A DNA stretch of 27,940 nt from a virus: the IMG/VR virus record IMGVR_UViG_3300023174_000533, positions 1 through 27,940 of that record; one strand, given 5' to 3'. Position 1 is the first letter of the stretch; every line of letters starts with the position of its first letter. Below the pieces are notes generated by a model that worked only from the letters and a program-made list of their open reading frames with translations, did not search any database and was not told where the DNA came from. Shown here piece after piece: positions 22,611 through 27,916 of the stretch. The position numbers were made by a program, and so were the translations under genes.

Positions 22611-23771
22611 ATGAATTCATTCAAGAAAATCGCTCTAGCCATGGTTGCAGCCATGACTATCGGCACAATCGTAGCAACGCCTGCAAACGCTGCTGTAATG
22701 ACAGTCGCTGTATCGCTTGATACTGTAGCAAATACTACAGCATCATCAATCGCAACACCCGCTTCATTGCCAGTACCTGCAGACAATTCAGTAGATTCTA
22801 CTGATGCACTAAAGTTTGTAGCAACAGTTGATGCAGGAACAAACGTTTCTGTAGTAGCAACAAATGCAACAATCGTGTCTGCACTGCACACATCTGCTGC
22901 ACCAGTAGGAGCAACTTCAGGATCTTCATCTTTGACAATTGCCACTGGTACAGGAACAACAGCAACATTTTATGTCTATACAAAGACAACAGCAATTGGT
23001 ACAGTTGTAATTACTAACGGTGGAACACAACTTACATACTACGTACAGGGAACTGCTGGTAAGATTAATACTCTAACAGTATCTGCTCCTGCTACAGGTG
23101 CTGCTGGCACAAAGCAAGACATTACAGTAACTGCAACAGACACATTTGGAAACAAGGTATCTGGTAAGTCAATTACTGCAACAGTATTTGCTGCAACAGC
23201 AACACTAGACACAGCAACAGCAACAACTGGTGCTACACTTTCAGACTTTGGAGTTGCTACATTTAAGGCAACACTTCCAGCAACTGGAGTGCGATCACTA
23301 ATCACATTTTCACCTACAACATCATCTGATGCAACAACAGCAGATGTAGTTGGTCTTCCTGCTCGTGCACTAGCACCTTTTGCAGAGATTACAGTTCGTG
23401 ATCTAGTATCAGAACTTGCAGCACAAATTGCTGCTAAGGATGCAGCACTTGCTGCTAAAGCAATTTCAGATGCTGCAGTTGTAAAGGCTGCTGCAGATGC
23501 TGCTGCTGCTAAGGTTACTTCAGATGCTGCTCTTGCAGCAGAAAAGGCTGCTTCTGTAAAGGCACTTGCTGATGCAAAGGCTGCTGCTGATAAGGCACTT
23601 GCTGATGCAAAGGCTGCTTCAGATAAGGTTATCCTTAATAAGGATGCAACTATTGCTAAGTTAACAGCAGATAATACTGCTGCACTTAAGTCAATTAAGG
23701 ATGCTTTCAATGCACTTGCAAAGAAGTGGAATGCAAAGAATCCAAAGGCTAAGGTTACTTACCTTAAGTAA
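22611..23771 (+). CDS. Secreted surface protein with Ig-like domain and Ala-rich coiled coil
   Basis: 386 residues. A clear Sec signal peptide (MNSFKKIALAMVAAMTIGTI, then ...TPANA) has a cleavage site after A27. Residues about 28-135 are a Thr/Val/Ala-rich beta domain. Residues 140-240 resemble a bacterial Ig-like (Big_1, invasin) repeat (DITVTATDTFGNKVSGKSIT, FGVATFKATL). Residues 262-370 form an Ala-rich coiled coil with 11-residue periodicity, ending in KKWNAKNPKAKVTYLK. There is no LPxTG or obvious anchor, so cell-wall association could use the coiled coil. Composition and codons (AAG, GCT, GCA) differ from neighbouring phage genes, and it has its own promoter and terminator, so I infer a host-derived moron that may alter the infected cell surface. 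Confidence 0.85.
   Translation: MNSFKKIALAMVAAMTIGTIVATPANAAVMTVAVSLDTVANTTASSIATPASLPVPADNSVDSTDALKFVATVDAGTNVSVVATNATIVSALHTSAAPVGATSGSSSLTIATGTGTTATFYVYTKTTAIGTVVITNGGTQLTYYVQGTAGKINTLTVSAPATGAAGTKQDITVTATDTFGNKVSGKSITATVFAATATLDTATATTGATLSDFGVATFKATLPATGVRSLITFSPTTSSDATTADVVGLPARALAPFAEITVRDLVSELAAQIAAKDAALAAKAISDAAVVKAAADAAAAKVTSDAALAAEKAASVKALADAKAAADKALADAKAASDKVILNKDATIAKLTADNTAALKSIKDAFNALAKKWNAKNPKAKVTYLK
23559..23618 (+). repeat. Two identical 27-bp direct repeats in the coiled-coil coding region
   Basis: Bases 23559-23585 and 23592-23618 are identical 27-mers (beginning AAGGCACTTGC) with a 33-bp period. They encode KALADAKAA twice, the 11-residue unit of the Ala-rich coiled coil. 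Recent duplication within the gene explains them. Confidence 0.8.
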
Positions 23772-23787
23772 TTAGTCCAACAATTAG

Positions 23788-23815
23788 GGGAGTCATTAAT
23801 TTGGCTCCCTTTTTT
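23788..23815 (+). terminator. Rho-independent terminator
   Basis: GGGAGTCA (23788-23795), loop of 6, TGGCTCCC (23802-23809; one G-U pair), then a run of six T. It lies 16 bases after the stop of the surface-protein gene and closes that cassette. It is the best classical terminator in the window. Confidence 0.85.
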
Positions 23816-23844
23816 GTTATATCATTATGTTTAACTGAATAATT

Positions 23845-23853
23845 TGATATAAT
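23845..23853 (+). promoter_or_regulatory. Extended -10 promoter TGATATAAT
   Basis: TG-A-TATAAT, 30 bases after the terminator. The start would fall near 23860, placing AGGAGAGA (23861-23868) at the 5' end of the mRNA and favouring TTG 23876 as start codon. No good -35 is visible. Confidence 0.5.
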
Positions 23854-23875
23854 AAGCATGAGGAGAGACCACCAC

Positions 23876-26014
23876 TTGAATAAACTCTTGCGTATATCTA
23901 CAGTTATTTTACTTGCTTTTGGATGGCTATTAATATCCCCACAAGATGCTCACTCTGACGATCCCTTAACAGTAGCAGCAAAACAAATTGAAAACCTCAA
24001 TAGCGCAGTAGATAAATTAGACTATAAAGATGGTCTAATAAACCTAATTGATATAGCAGAGAATAAGTTTATGTATGCTAAAAATCTACGGGATGTCAGA
24101 GACCTAGCAATTAAAAATTATGATGATGCAGTAGATGTAGAAGCCCTAGCACTGGAAGCAAAAGATCTTGCCCAGTCTAATGTAGATGGGCAAACAGCAA
24201 CAGTAGCCACTGCCATAACAAATAAGAATAATGCTAAAGATGCTCTTGATTTAGCCAACATTAATCTATCAACTGCTCAGCAAGCATTAAGTGGCGCAAG
24301 TGGCCCTGGTTTAAGATATGATGTCTACAGTTTGATTAGAGTTAATGGACAAGCAGCCACAGATCAACTACTATGTAGTGGCACATGGAATTCTAATTAT
24401 ATGAATTTACCTGTTTGTGGTAATAGATATGAAAACTTTATAGTTAAGTTTACTGGAAAAATAACAGTACCGTCATGGTTTACATCAACAAAATTTGCAG
24501 GATACACAGATGATGGTTTTAAAATGTATGTTAATGGAAACCTTGCTATAAATAACTGGCGTGAGCAGGGAGCAACATGGAGTGCATATTCTCCAATATA
24601 CGATGTAACTGAAGAAAAAGCATTAAATGTAGAGATATGGTGGTACAACGGTGGAGGGCCTGGATCCTACCATCTTGGCTGGGCTATTCCAGGAGGATGG
24701 ACTGGCGCAGGATGTGACTACGCTGGAGATCCAAGGGTCTGGGGACAAAACTTTAGTTGTAATCTAAATACATTTTCTTCTGGATCTGGAGCAAGTGCAA
24801 CACAGACTGCAGATTATCAAGCAGCATTAAGTGCAAAGAATGCAGCACAGCAAGAATATAATGACAAACTAAATGTATATAATCAAGAAGTTGCAACACT
24901 AAATTCATATAACCAAGACTTAACTAATAAGACATCTGAGTATGAAAATGCTGTTAATAATACAGAAGATGCTTTATATGAAAAAAATAATTCTATATCT
25001 AATTTAAATAACGCAATCCTTGATGTCAATAGTGCAATTAATGACGCATGGCGTTACTATGATGAGCAATCACAACGAGAAATTCAAAGAGCAATTGCAC
25101 AAGCAGCAGCCAACGCAGTAGCAAACCAACCTACACCAGAGCCAAAGCCTACTGTTGAACCAGAAAAACCAAAGCCTTCTGCACCACCAACAGAAAAACC
25201 TGAGCCAAAACCAACTAATAATACTGCCACAGAAGAACCAGGTCCAAAGCCAACACAGCCAGGCCCAAAGCCTACAGAGCCTGGACCTAAGCCAGAACCA
25301 ACAGACAAGCCAAATCCAGAGCCTACAGATAAGCCAAAGCCAGAAGAGCCTAAGCCTACATCTGCCCCAAGTCCTGAACCAAAGCCAGGGCCTACTCCAG
25401 AGCCTTCTGTAGAGCCTTCCCAAGAACCTAAACCACTTCCAAGACCAGACTTTAAGCCAGCAGAAAACATTGATCCAGTAATCAAGGATGCAGCATTAGC
25501 AGCACTTATCCCACAAAAGGGTACAGGAAATGCAGAAGATTTATCTGGTGTTATTGCAAACCTTACAAGCAAGGATAATAAATTAGTTAAACTTTCTGTA
25601 GAGCAAACAGCAGCAGTAAGTCAAACTCTTAAATCTCTTACTCAAGAAGCCAAGGCAGAAGTAGCAGAAAACCTTGGTATTTCACCAGCAGAAGTTACAA
25701 AGGTTGCAGAGGCGATGAAGTCAAACCCTGCAGTAGCAGCAGCGTTTGTTGAGTTTGCAGAAAGAGCAGGGGATGCAGGAGATACCCCAATGCCATTTAC
25801 ATTAGCAGATGCAACAACAGAAGTACAAACAGAAGCATTTTTAGCAGACCCACTTGGAGCAGTTTTTGCGGTGGACCCAGTAGAACTTCTATCTAATTTC
25901 TTTGAGTTAGGTATGGATATGACAGACGATCAGAGAGAGAAAGCGCAAGAAGTAATTGTCCCAGTGGTCATTGCATCACAAATTGCAGGGGCAATGATAA
26001 GGAGGAACAAATGA
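23876..26014 (+). CDS. Secreted PA14-domain surface protein with Pro-rich stalk
   Basis: I start it at TTG 23876 (712 residues): AGGAGAGA lies 8-10 bases upstream and the TTG gives a compact signal peptide (NKLLRISTVILLAFGWLLIS, then PQDAHS). An in-frame ATG at 23858 lacks a ribosome site and sits 4 bases after the -10 box. Order: signal peptide; helical coiled coil 30-140; PA14-like beta domain about 142-300 (FAGYTDDGFKMYVNGNLAIN, then EIWWYNGGG and SYHLGWAIPGG) with four Cys that could form disulfides; second coiled coil 305-410; PKP/PEP repeat stalk 418-520; helical domain; hydrophobic VIVPVVIASQIAGAM then RRNK at the C-terminus, a possible membrane anchor. PA14 domains commonly bind carbohydrates. 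It is probably displayed on the infected cell. It could alternatively aid lysis, but I see no catalytic motif. Confidence 0.8.
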   Translation: MNKLLRISTVILLAFGWLLISPQDAHSDDPLTVAAKQIENLNSAVDKLDYKDGLINLIDIAENKFMYAKNLRDVRDLAIKNYDDAVDVEALALEAKDLAQSNVDGQTATVATAITNKNNAKDALDLANINLSTAQQALSGASGPGLRYDVYSLIRVNGQAATDQLLCSGTWNSNYMNLPVCGNRYENFIVKFTGKITVPSWFTSTKFAGYTDDGFKMYVNGNLAINNWREQGATWSAYSPIYDVTEEKALNVEIWWYNGGGPGSYHLGWAIPGGWTGAGCDYAGDPRVWGQNFSCNLNTFSSGSGASATQTADYQAALSAKNAAQQEYNDKLNVYNQEVATLNSYNQDLTNKTSEYENAVNNTEDALYEKNNSISNLNNAILDVNSAINDAWRYYDEQSQREIQRAIAQAAANAVANQPTPEPKPTVEPEKPKPSAPPTEKPEPKPTNNTATEEPGPKPTQPGPKPTEPGPKPEPTDKPNPEPTDKPKPEEPKPTSAPSPEPKPGPTPEPSVEPSQEPKPLPRPDFKPAENIDPVIKDAALAALIPQKGTGNAEDLSGVIANLTSKDNKLVKLSVEQTAAVSQTLKSLTQEAKAEVAENLGISPAEVTKVAEAMKSNPAVAAAFVEFAERAGDAGDTPMPFTLADATTEVQTEAFLADPLGAVFAVDPVELLSNFFELGMDMTDDQREKAQEVIVPVVIASQIAGAMIRRNK
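25131..25436 (+). repeat. Proline-rich degenerate tandem repeat region
   Basis: About 300 bases coding for repeated PEPKPT, PGPKPTEP and PTDKPNPEPT units. The DNA is a degenerate repeat of CCAAAGCC- and CCAGAGCCT-type words. The encoded polyproline-like stalk resembles wall-spanning segments of Gram-positive surface proteins. Confidence 0.75.
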
Positions 26015-26238
26015 AAATAATCAATAAAGCCATCAACCTGGTAGGCAAAATGCTCAAGGGATTAATTAAATGGTTTAAAGATGCAGGAATGGAATTAATT
26101 GCACAAGCATTTACCCTCCTTGGCTTCTTTATCGCATGGCTAACTTTAACGGGATCAGCAAGAGACATTGTTGGAATTGCAGTACTTGCAACAACAGTTA
26201 TTTGGCTAATTACAATCCCGCTTAGAAAGGAGAAATAA
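26011..26238 (+). CDS. Small membrane protein, holin-like candidate
   Basis: 75 residues, starting in an ATGA overlap with the PA14 gene. An amphipathic basic N-terminus (MKIINKAINLVGKMLKGLIK) is followed by two predicted membrane segments (about 29-48 and 51-70, LIAQAFTLLGFFIAWLTLTG and IVGIAVLATTVIWLITIPL) and an RKEK tail. Size, topology and the neighbouring membrane protein suggest a holin or antiholin pair. No endolysin gene lies in the window, so the lysis role is by inference only. Confidence 0.65.
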   Translation: MKIINKAINLVGKMLKGLIKWFKDAGMELIAQAFTLLGFFIAWLTLTGSARDIVGIAVLATTVIWLITIPLRKEK

Positions 26239-26239
26239 A

Positions 26240-26524
26240 ATGACAACTAAAAAAGTAGCAGAACCCCCAAAGAAAGAGCACCCACAGAAAGCAATAACAA
26301 ATATCTTAATGAGAATTCTTGCTGTATTTGCAGCATCTGGTCTATCAGTTTTAGGAGCAGGAGCCGTAGTAGGAATTGAAACTGTACAGGCAGTAATGCT
26401 TGCAGGACTATTAGGAGTAGCAACAGTTATTGAAAGACTGGCAAGGGCTTTTTTGGACGATGGAAGGCTATCATTAGCAGAAATAAATGATGCCTTTAAA
26501 ACGGTAGATAAAAAGGCTAATTAG
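26240..26524 (+). CDS. Putative holin
   Basis: 94 residues with strong AGGAG before the ATG. A charged N-terminus is followed by two hydrophobic segments (about 24-45, ILMRILAVFAASGLSVLGAG; and 50-68, VQAVMLAGLLGVATVIE), then LARAFLDDGRLSLAEINDAF, an acidic EF-hand-like tail found in phage holins of actinophage type. It is one base downstream of the first membrane protein, so the two are probably made together. Holins open the inner membrane for lysis. The tail motif makes this the better holin candidate of the two. Confidence 0.7.
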   Translation: MTTKKVAEPPKKEHPQKAITNILMRILAVFAASGLSVLGAGAVVGIETVQAVMLAGLLGVATVIERLARAFLDDGRLSLAEINDAFKTVDKKAN

Positions 26525-26540
26525 TCATATTTAACCTTGC

Positions 26541-26570
26541 TTGACAGCCCTCTCCAGTCAATGGTATACT
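26541..26570 (+). promoter_or_regulatory. Sigma70-type promoter of the Ntn peptidase gene
   Basis: TTGACA at 26541-26546, 18 bases, TATACT at 26565-26570 in GGTATACTT with TG ahead (extended -10). The start should be near 26577, in the loop of the hairpin at 26548-26593. It belongs to the GGTATACTT family with the sites at 8956 and 27109. Confidence 0.7.
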
Positions 26571-26598
26571 TGAAATCTACCATTTGGAGAGGGTTTTT
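26548..26598 (+). terminator. Terminator-like hairpin that also buries the ribosome site
   Basis: CCCTCTCCA (26548-26556) pairs with TGGAGAGGG (26585-26593), and AATGGTA (26560-26566) with TACCATT (26578-26584), with a 3-base bulge and an 11-base loop. T5 follows at once. The 3' arm contains GGAGAGG, the ribosome site of ATG 26601. Read-through RNA from the holin gene can fold; RNA from the internal promoter lacks the 5' arm. Confidence 0.75.
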
Positions 26599-26600
26599 GC

Positions 26601-27128
26601 ATGACAATTATTGCTGTCGTAAGACAAGATGAAACAGTTCATATGGCTGGTGACAGAGGTGCATCAACAGAAGACTCTATCTTAGTATTAAAGGCTCCAA
26701 AAGTATTTAAAATTGGTCCTTATCTTTTTGGTTATGCAGGAACAATGGATGGAGAAAGAATTCGTCATAATTTTAAACCACCTGTACCAAAGCCAAATGC
26801 TAATTTAGATAAGTTTATGTATACTGAATTTCTTGTTGCACTTAGAAATTTTTATGAAACTTGGTGGGTAGATATATCAAAAGAATCTGATTTTGGTATG
26901 CTTATTGCAATTAAAGGAAGAGTCTTTGAACATAACGTAGTTGATATGTCTTTAACAGAATACCAAGAAGATTATCTTGCAATGGGATCAGGATCTGATT
27001 TTGCACTTGGTTCTTTATGGACAACTCAAAATCAAAAAAATGGTAAAAGAAGAGCACAATTAGCAGTAGAAGCAGCCATAAAATATTCAACATCCTGTAT
27101 TGGACCAGTTGACGTATTAAGTATTTAG
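26601..27128 (+). CDS. HslV/proteasome-like Ntn-hydrolase peptidase
   Basis: 175 residues. After removal of Met1 the protein begins TIIAVVRQD, as HslV begins TTIVSVRRN, and the residues align without gaps: Thr1 nucleophile, Asp17 (MAGDRGAS) and Lys33 (LKAPKVFKI) are all in HslV register. YLFGYAGTMDGERI matches the HslV AGFAG segment, and YLAMGSGSDFALGSL the conserved IGSGG block with Ser129. AQLAVEAAIKYSTSCIGPV matches the last helix and strand. I therefore read it as an active-site-competent proteasome/HslV-family threonine peptidase. No HslU or other AAA+ partner is encoded here, so it may use a host unfoldase, act alone, or be a relative with another substrate. Hsp20 lies 267 bases downstream. 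Confidence 0.85.
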   Translation: MTIIAVVRQDETVHMAGDRGASTEDSILVLKAPKVFKIGPYLFGYAGTMDGERIRHNFKPPVPKPNANLDKFMYTEFLVALRNFYETWWVDISKESDFGMLIAIKGRVFEHNVVDMSLTEYQEDYLAMGSGSDFALGSLWTTQNQKNGKRRAQLAVEAAIKYSTSCIGPVDVLSI

Positions 27129-27137
27129 GGGTATACT
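27109..27137 (+). promoter_or_regulatory. Promoter producing an apparently leaderless mRNA
   Basis: TTGACG at 27109-27114, 17 bases, TATACT at 27132-27137 in GGTATACTT. Only 6 bases separate the -10 box from the ATG at 27144, so transcription should begin at or next to the A of the start codon. No ribosome site is present. The promoter overlaps the end of the peptidase gene. Confidence 0.65.
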
Positions 27138-27143
27138 TATAAT

Positions 27144-27335
27144 ATGAATGAAGAAGTATCAATAGAAGAGCAAGAGTTTGGAATTTGGATTACAAACGGC
27201 ATTGAAAGAGGTTGGATTACAGAACCTTATTGTCATACCCATGATGGTGGAACTCAATATATGAGTGAAGAAGAGATTCAAGAATGGGAAGATGGCGGAG
27301 ATCCCTGTGAGCACGTTGTAAGACTTATGATATAA
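27144..27335 (+). CDS. Small acidic His/Cys protein
   Basis: 63 residues, strongly acidic. WITNGIERGWITEPYCHTHD, then MSEEEIQEWEDGGDPCEHVV: the spacing C29-x-H31-x-H/D and C55-x-H57 could hold a zinc ion. Such short proteins occur in other actinophages, but I know of no function. It is read from an apparently leaderless mRNA and lies between the peptidase and Hsp20, so it may belong to the proteostasis cluster, perhaps as an adaptor; this is a guess from position. Confidence 0.65.
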   Translation: MNEEVSIEEQEFGIWITNGIERGWITEPYCHTHDGGTQYMSEEEIQEWEDGGDPCEHVVRLMI

Positions 27336-27336
27336 T
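27328..27336 (+). promoter_or_regulatory. Extended -10 promoter TGATATAAT before Hsp20
   Basis: TG-A-TATAAT overlaps the stop of the acidic-protein gene. The start near 27343 would give a leader of about 53 bases with a small CCTG/CAGG hairpin and AAAGGGGA before the ATG at 27396. No good -35 is seen. Confidence 0.45.
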
Positions 27337-27395
27337 TATTATGTACCTGCCGTCAGGGGGTATAAATTAACTTATTCGCTTGAAAGGGGAATAAA

Positions 27396-27821
27396 ATGGT
27401 AACATCATATACATATAACGGATCTTTTGGAAATTTTTTCAATGATCCATTTTTTATCGGTTTTGACAAAATGTTTGACCGATTAACAAACACAACAAAT
27501 CAACAATCTGGATTTCCTCCATATAATGTTCGCAAGGTAGACGAAGATACATTCGTTGTTGAACTTGCAGTAGCAGGTTTTAATAAACAGGCTATTGAAA
27601 TTACAGAGCATGATGGAGTTCTTACCATTAAGGGTGAGCGTCCAGAAGATGCTGAAGAATATATTCACAAGGGAATTGCAGGTAGAAAATTTACTCGCAC
27701 ATTTACGCTTGCAGAGTATATGTATGTTGATAGTGCTGATCTTAATGATGGAATGCTTTATGTTGTTGTAAAGCGTGATATTCCAGAAGAGAAAAAGCCA
27801 AAAACAATCAAAGTAAAGTAG
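27396..27821 (+). CDS. Small heat-shock protein, Hsp20/IbpA-like
   Basis: 141 residues. The N-terminus is FF-rich (GNFFNDPFFIGFDKMFDRL), as in IbpA-type proteins. The alpha-crystallin domain (about 43-130) contains YNVRKVDEDTFVVELAVAGF, then ITEHDGVLTIKGER, GIAGRKFTRTFTLAEYM and LNDGMLYVVVKRDIPE. The C-terminal TIKVK supplies the I-x-I/V anchor. Such chaperones hold unfolded proteins and occur in cyanophages and some other phages. The residues for oligomer formation are all present, so it is likely functional. It follows the Ntn peptidase and a small acidic gene. Ribosome site AAAGGGGA. Confidence 0.93.
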   Translation: MVTSYTYNGSFGNFFNDPFFIGFDKMFDRLTNTTNQQSGFPPYNVRKVDEDTFVVELAVAGFNKQAIEITEHDGVLTIKGERPEDAEEYIHKGIAGRKFTRTFTLAEYMYVDSADLNDGMLYVVVKRDIPEEKKPKTIKVK

Positions 27822-27833: not shown

Positions 27834-27916
27834 GTCCCCACACAGGACCTTAGTGATGGATTAGTTACCCATTTATAATGACCGTGGCCTACGTGCCTGA
27901 ATCACCTGTGTGGGGC
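27834..27916 (+). ncRNA. Candidate structured RNA (about 80 nt)
   Basis: CCCCACACAGG (27836-27846) and CCTGTGTGGGG (27905-27915) form an 11-bp perfect closing stem. A second helix TGAT/ATCA (27854-27857 with 27901-27904) stacks on it, leaving a 7-base bulge on the 5' side. Inside are possible short hairpins (ATGG/CCAT; CGT/ACG or GGC/GCC). It has no open frame, no tRNA features and only CTTTC after the stem, so a simple terminator is not convincing. It may be a free RNA or a leader element for the next gene outside the window. The fold is by eye. Confidence 0.4.

Follow-up and report, generated by a model that had tools for sequence, protein, structure and literature searches.

A conserved peptidase–small protein gene doublet, and an apparently separate hsp20 with a ROSE-like leader, in uncultured phages most likely infecting freshwater actinobacteria

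Related uncultured actinophages, whose hosts are most likely freshwater actinobacteria, carry a conserved gene doublet in which a proteasome-like Ntn peptidase gene (ntn) is followed by the gene of a small acidic Cys/His protein (here the small gene). The doublet appears to be new, and is undescribed in the literature searched. It lies in the final 1.3 kb of the window, by which we mean the whole stretch of DNA analysed, a virus record 27,940 bases long; there, as a preliminary description had claimed, three consecutive open reading frames of 175, 63 and 141 aa, all on the plus strand, encode the Ntn peptidase, the small protein and an Hsp20. The same description proposed that the three genes form a proteostasis cassette, an idea that proves only partly real because hsp20 is a separate unit with an apparent RNA temperature switch of its own. 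The explanation we favour, and to which we give about an even chance of being right, is that two independent things stand side by side: a peptidase doublet for cytosolic turnover in which the small protein is an accessory, and a separately regulated hsp20. We know of no function for the proteasome-like homologs of phages. A partner gene found in well over a hundred distinct phages, and kept when an unrelated peptidase takes the place of Ntn, is a first concrete lead to that function and offers a two-protein test of it. The genes concerned are as follows.

22611-26014: a pair of late proteins (386 aa and 718 aa) whose starts resemble signal peptides, conserved upstream in relatives
26011..26238, plus strand: p75, a predicted membrane protein of 75 aa, conserved upstream neighbour (128 of 166 loci searched)
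26240..26524, plus strand: holin-like protein of 94 aa, the usual gene before the peptidase slot
26601..27128, plus strand: Ntn peptidase, proteasome-like, N-terminal threonine, 175 aa (PHROG match, alignment, predicted fold)
27144..27335, plus strand: acidic orphan Cys/His protein, 63 aa (relatives in viral contigs, alignment)
27396..27821, plus strand: Hsp20/alpha-crystallin small heat-shock protein, IbpA-like, 141 aa

Loci were retrieved by similarity to the Ntn or small proteins, so that the counts given here describe this phage group and not all phages; Ntn loci were de-duplicated before counting. The hosts are most likely actinobacteria because WhiB is encoded, above the family cut-off, by 45 of 50 long relatives (the control was positive only in Corynebacterium). 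A tRNA search of the window found none, and a minus-strand match to SNORD12 was dismissed as a false positive.

The first protein of the doublet falls in phrog_1040 ('peptidase HslV family'; E 7e-23) and has a weak match to Pfam Proteasome that falls under the family cut-off (E 4.5e-4). An AlphaFold model built on a 55-sequence alignment (pLDDT 95) superposes on BPH (5ovt; Z 20.4 over 165 residues, rmsd 2.4) and, over essentially its whole length, on HslV (Z 20.2), so that its residue 2 coincides with chain residue 1 of the BPH and HslV structures. This residue is Thr in 53 of the 55 representatives and Ser in two; Lys34 (K33 of the proteasome) is invariant in the alignment; Asp18, corresponding to Asp17 of the catalytic triad, is present in the window, and nearly all relatives have Asp or Glu at this position; and Gly44 and Gly47 are invariant, either being a candidate counterpart of the oxyanion-hole Gly47. 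The model places helices at 50-57 and 69-87, and the protein carries a GSG motif and is of compact form, with no C-terminal fifth helix. Judged from sequence and model, the fold is that of a proteasome subunit of the HslV/BPH type with its catalytic Thr and Lys intact and, because residue 2 is Thr or Ser and Lys34 is invariant, the enzyme looks catalytically competent following the removal of Met1, which would expose the catalytic Thr. It probably assembles a closed ring of the compact HslV/BPH kind, and such a ring would act in the host cytosol, cutting peptides, or proteins that are unfolded beforehand, with no phage ATPase. The earlier claim of an ATPase-free peptidase agrees with the gene content of the group, as no HslU/Clp-type AAA_2 ATPase was detected among 50 long phage records, of which many are fragmentary, by a search whose control was positive in 14 of 14 genomes.

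Among known systems, HslV (ClpQ) and BPH of group I share with the peptidase its fold, length, N-terminal Thr, Lys, GSG motif and compact form, but identity to them is about 20% and the phage records lack the HslU-like AAA_2 partner gene. Assignment to HslV proper was accordingly rejected (23 bits against an equivalog cut-off of 157.75, with no HslU-like partner gene), as was assignment to PPH, which is about 140 aa long and lacks helix H2 (Fuchs et al. 2021; PMC8665760), whereas the window's protein has 175 aa and contains H2. The AAH and PPH proteins are likewise phage proteasome-like homologs with no propeptide and no AAA+ partner, but the survey that defined many such homologs found no informative genomic context for them (PMC8665760), in contrast to the conserved doublet described here. 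The HslV-family peptidases of T5-like (Epseptimavirus), Aeromonas and Vibrio phages also belong to phrog_1040, at about 30% identity to Ntn, and in four such loci examined the small protein was not found as a neighbour. In cellular genomes, Ntn relatives occurred in 3 of 289 alphaproteobacterial genomes surveyed, with the small gene absent from all three; the highest-scoring of the cellular relatives, L288 (70 bits), is an alphaproteobacterial protein other than HslV.

Conservation of the doublet was counted over 162 distinct non-isolate Ntn loci, that is, loci of uncultured phages with at least 300 bases downstream. The small gene is immediately 3' of ntn in 146 of these and 0.45-2.3 kb from it in seven more; ntn is found without it in L017, L019, L020, L241, L263, L270, L271, L274 and L244. 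Viewed from the other side, 145 of 155 small genes have ntn directly 5', and both genes are present in 43 of 50 long records. Where genes have been inserted between the two, they encode a methyltransferase, a DUF6065 protein, a tetrapyrrole-methylase domain or a transglycosylase.

In a few relatives the peptidase slot is filled by something else. L099 and L219 have the small gene without ntn and, preceding it, a DUF885 protein (E 4e-114 and 1e-121). A search for DUF885 gave eight contigs, from all of which ntn is absent, with the small gene directly downstream in seven; L298 and L304 look near-identical, and the independent DUF885 contigs are therefore fewer than eight. The six that were mapped have the order p75–holin–DUF885–small, with an extra methylase-like gene in L282, and all six DUF885 proteins tested contain an HESVPGHH motif, from which we take DUF885 to be a putative metallopeptidase. 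DUF885 (PF05960; PDB 3iuk) thus occupies in related phages, though not in the window, the same slot before the small gene as Ntn, from which it differs in having an unrelated fold and putative metallopeptidase chemistry. A literature search on the context of DUF885 in phages found no relevant paper. That one small Cys/His protein serving interchangeable, unrelated peptidases (Ntn or DUF885) amounts to an undescribed protein-turnover system of the viruses of abundant freshwater actinobacteria is a tentative suggestion, and one that we rather doubt.

The small protein itself has no family match in Pfam, PHROGs or NCBIfam, and its model (pLDDT 90) has no fold match in the PDB. Residues W15, G19, C30, T32, H33, E44, W48, D53, P54 and C55 are invariant among 91 sequences. 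Relatives in viral contigs number 124 by single-sequence patterns and at least 592 by alignment patterns, and since more than a hundred of them are close, the short reading frame is taken to be a real gene. Weak profile matches to carboxypeptidase B2 (E 0.012, with only partial profile coverage) were read as chance, and a scan of cellular genomes with the alignment returned two fragments, both spurious. Among isolated phages a single relative turned up, and a weak one: gp2 of Mycobacterium phage Aminay, whose first 8 kb contain no annotated Ntn or DUF885 peptidase; among the retrieved loci, L079 also has a family member with neither peptidase nearby.

Each of the three genes is preceded by a promoter of its own, as had been proposed: those of ntn and the small gene are near-consensus, and hsp20 has an extended -10 and a leader, described below.

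26541..26570, plus strand: peptidase promoter, TTGACA-18-TATACT with TG before the -10 (11/12 match)
26548..26593, plus strand: hairpin of CCCTCTCCA (26548-26556) and TGGAGAGGG (26585-26593), then TTTTT (read from the sequence)
27109..27137, plus strand: small-gene promoter, TTGACG-17-TATACT, its -35 within the 3' end of ntn

A peptidase promoter with at least 10 of 12 consensus positions occurs in 147 of 156 distinct relatives and in 8 of 156 shuffles; for the small-gene promoter (spacer 17) the figures are 126 of 139 relatives and 6 of 139 shuffles. The -10 of the latter ends 6 nt 5' of the ATG in 120 of the 126, and the small transcript is therefore predicted to be leaderless; it looks as if it starts at the ATG. 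The peptidase hairpin, found in part of the group, holds the -10 inside its loop and the Shine-Dalgarno inside its 3' arm. Its arms co-vary, native stems of at least 8 bp being found in 20% of 86 diverse relatives against 2.4% of mismatched halves. By analogy with a terminator-embedded promoter, transcripts reading through from upstream would either end at this hairpin or have their ribosome site hidden. A similar promoter-hairpin element is seen in L079 directly 5' of the small gene.

How closely the two proteins are tied was examined by comparing their distances. A mirror-tree test for Ntn–small co-evolution was negative (Spearman coefficient 0.13 across 137 loci and 0.49 for a subset of 32). 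Of 627 pairs of near-identical small proteins, 237 have Ntn proteins that are at least 35% different, and the converse is seen too, with close Ntn proteins paired with distant small ones. Such free reassortment argues, at the level of sequence, against a finely co-evolved adaptor. The near-zero correlation, together with the swap for DUF885, points to a shared task or position and not to an adaptor finely fitted to the Ntn ring. The adaptor role that the preliminary description suggested for the small protein is not borne out: the family also stands beside the unrelated DUF885, has members in L079 and Aminay with neither enzyme nearby, and shows no co-variation with Ntn. The same low correlation and the same peptidase-free members would suit a rival account, in which ntn and the small gene are unrelated and are held together by the embedded promoter and by homologous recombination that keeps gene order in these mosaic phages, the DUF885 swap being chance. 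The whole late block p75-holin-ntn-small is indeed syntenic, and a small-gene promoter inside the 3' end of ntn could by itself keep the pair together. We take this account seriously but put its probability well below even, because the ntn|small junction is disrupted less often than the junction on either side of it, because the replacement of ntn in seven contigs is again a putative peptidase, and because the linkage survives in a divergent Ser-type Ntn clade (L050-L052, 30% identical), in which holin and p75 were not detected. A functional link between peptidase and accessory protein is likely on this comparative evidence. In the reading that we prefer, the small protein would accompany whichever peptidase fills the slot, usually Ntn and rarely DUF885, and would share that enzyme's task, whether it regulates, protects or feeds the peptidase or handles the products, with no need to be purpose-built for the Ntn ring; the likely role of the doublet would be the turnover of host proteins or peptides during infection.

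The flanking genes raise the question of lysis. Gene families that include the 94-aa holin-like protein precede ntn in 107 loci, and the protein has a weak holin match (phrog_443, E 0.013). Its best PHROG is phrog_26427, labelled 'nuclease', yet the protein is membrane-type and holin-looking, and the label is probably a mislabel. On the other side of the doublet, a secreted subtilase-like protein (L091:5211-6164 and about 88 other loci) is encoded directly after the small gene in 74 loci, with a CHAP/PG_binding endolysin further downstream. Its profile matches a subtilisin-like protease (E 4e-15) with D33, H85 and S261 invariant, and no named Pfam family was matched. Given these neighbours, the peptidase and small protein might act with holin, subtilase and endolysin on the actinobacterial envelope or on the timing of lysis. 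We judge this unlikely: neither Ntn nor the small protein has an evident signal peptide, their sequences starting as cytosolic ones, both genes have strong promoters of their own, and the window has no subtilase gene after the small gene. Further upstream, the 718-aa late protein matches PA14 weakly and contains a repeat region rich in Pro.

The third gene encodes a clear Hsp20 (PF00011, E 1.5e-17, 64 bits against a gathering score of 20.8; phrog_432, E 1e-38), and 39 of the 50 long records have hsp20, which speaks for a three-gene module. In such a module Hsp20 would hold substrates unfolded, the small protein would deliver them and Ntn would degrade them, and the three genes are consecutive in the window, as they are in a few relatives, with hsp20 following the small gene directly in 7 loci against the 74 with the subtilase-like gene in that place. 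The conserved neighbourhood on which the module depends was found for ntn and the small gene but not for hsp20: distances compared by hand in the 37 long contigs that have both genes place hsp20 less than 5 kb from ntn in 17 and otherwise 7-28 kb away. It is within 0.5 kb in three, two of which have identical coordinates and are apparently one phage. In most relatives hsp20 is on the opposite strand, upstream, elsewhere, separated by other genes or not found. With its variable location, its own promoter and a leader that is specific to Hsp20 wherever the gene stands, hsp20 is, on the sequence evidence, a separate unit and not part of the doublet, and we consider the three-gene cassette very improbable. 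The elements around hsp20 are these.

27328..27336, plus strand: hsp20 extended -10, TGATATAAT, read from the sequence; it overlaps the last bases of the small gene
27340..27395, plus strand: ROSE-like two-hairpin hsp20 leader (predicted folds, alignment)
27342-27364: hairpin I of the leader
27372-27394: hairpin II, with UCGCU (27376-27380) opposite the Shine-Dalgarno
27836-27915: conserved element CCCCACACAGG ... CCTGTGTGGGG, just 3' of hsp20 and downstream of a TATAAT

The last of these is conserved in dozens of fetched loci, has no Rfam match, and is a possible small RNA or terminator. The TGNTATAAT of the extended -10 is conserved in relatives, and the leader, with extended -10 and two hairpins, is the same in dozens of loci whatever the position of hsp20 in the genome. 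Because alignment shifts made the RNAalifold consensus poor, leader structure was judged by individual folds and an arm-swap test; a simple thermodynamic calculation on the window leader was flat, the method not being decisive. In the predicted folds of 34 leaders there are two hairpins, with the motif paired with the Shine-Dalgarno in the 3' hairpin and the AUG free; UCGCU is present in all 34 (alignment A7), and its specificity is shown by the fact that, of 115 occurrences of the motif, 112 are at detected Hsp20 starts.

Short ROSE-like thermometers of Pseudomonas ibpA have two hairpins, a length of 61-62 nt and the motif U(U/C)GCU (PMC3669281). The window leader resembles them (PMC3669281; Rfam RF02523 ROSE_3) in its length of about 60 nt, its two hairpins, its U(U/C)GCU opposite the Shine-Dalgarno and the IbpA-like Hsp20 downstream, and differs in being phage-borne and in that thermosensing is putative. 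It looks like a ROSE-like thermometer by definition, and a phage hsp20 leader of this kind appears to be new, suggesting that viruses may time chaperone synthesis by RNA thermometers. We propose that the IbpA-like hsp20 is controlled separately by this leader and would have come to lie beside the doublet in the window through local rearrangement. The window leader has no Rfam match; among unrelated hsp20 genes of isolated phages, five of six have U(U/C)GCU 19-26 nt before the ATG, and the leaders of L294, L296 and L293 match Rfam ROSE_3 below the gathering score (E 0.00026, 0.018 and 0.056). In Synechococcus phages S-SM2 and S-CRM01 (L293, L295) hsp20 is preceded by a gene with the annotation regA, which denotes a translational repressor.
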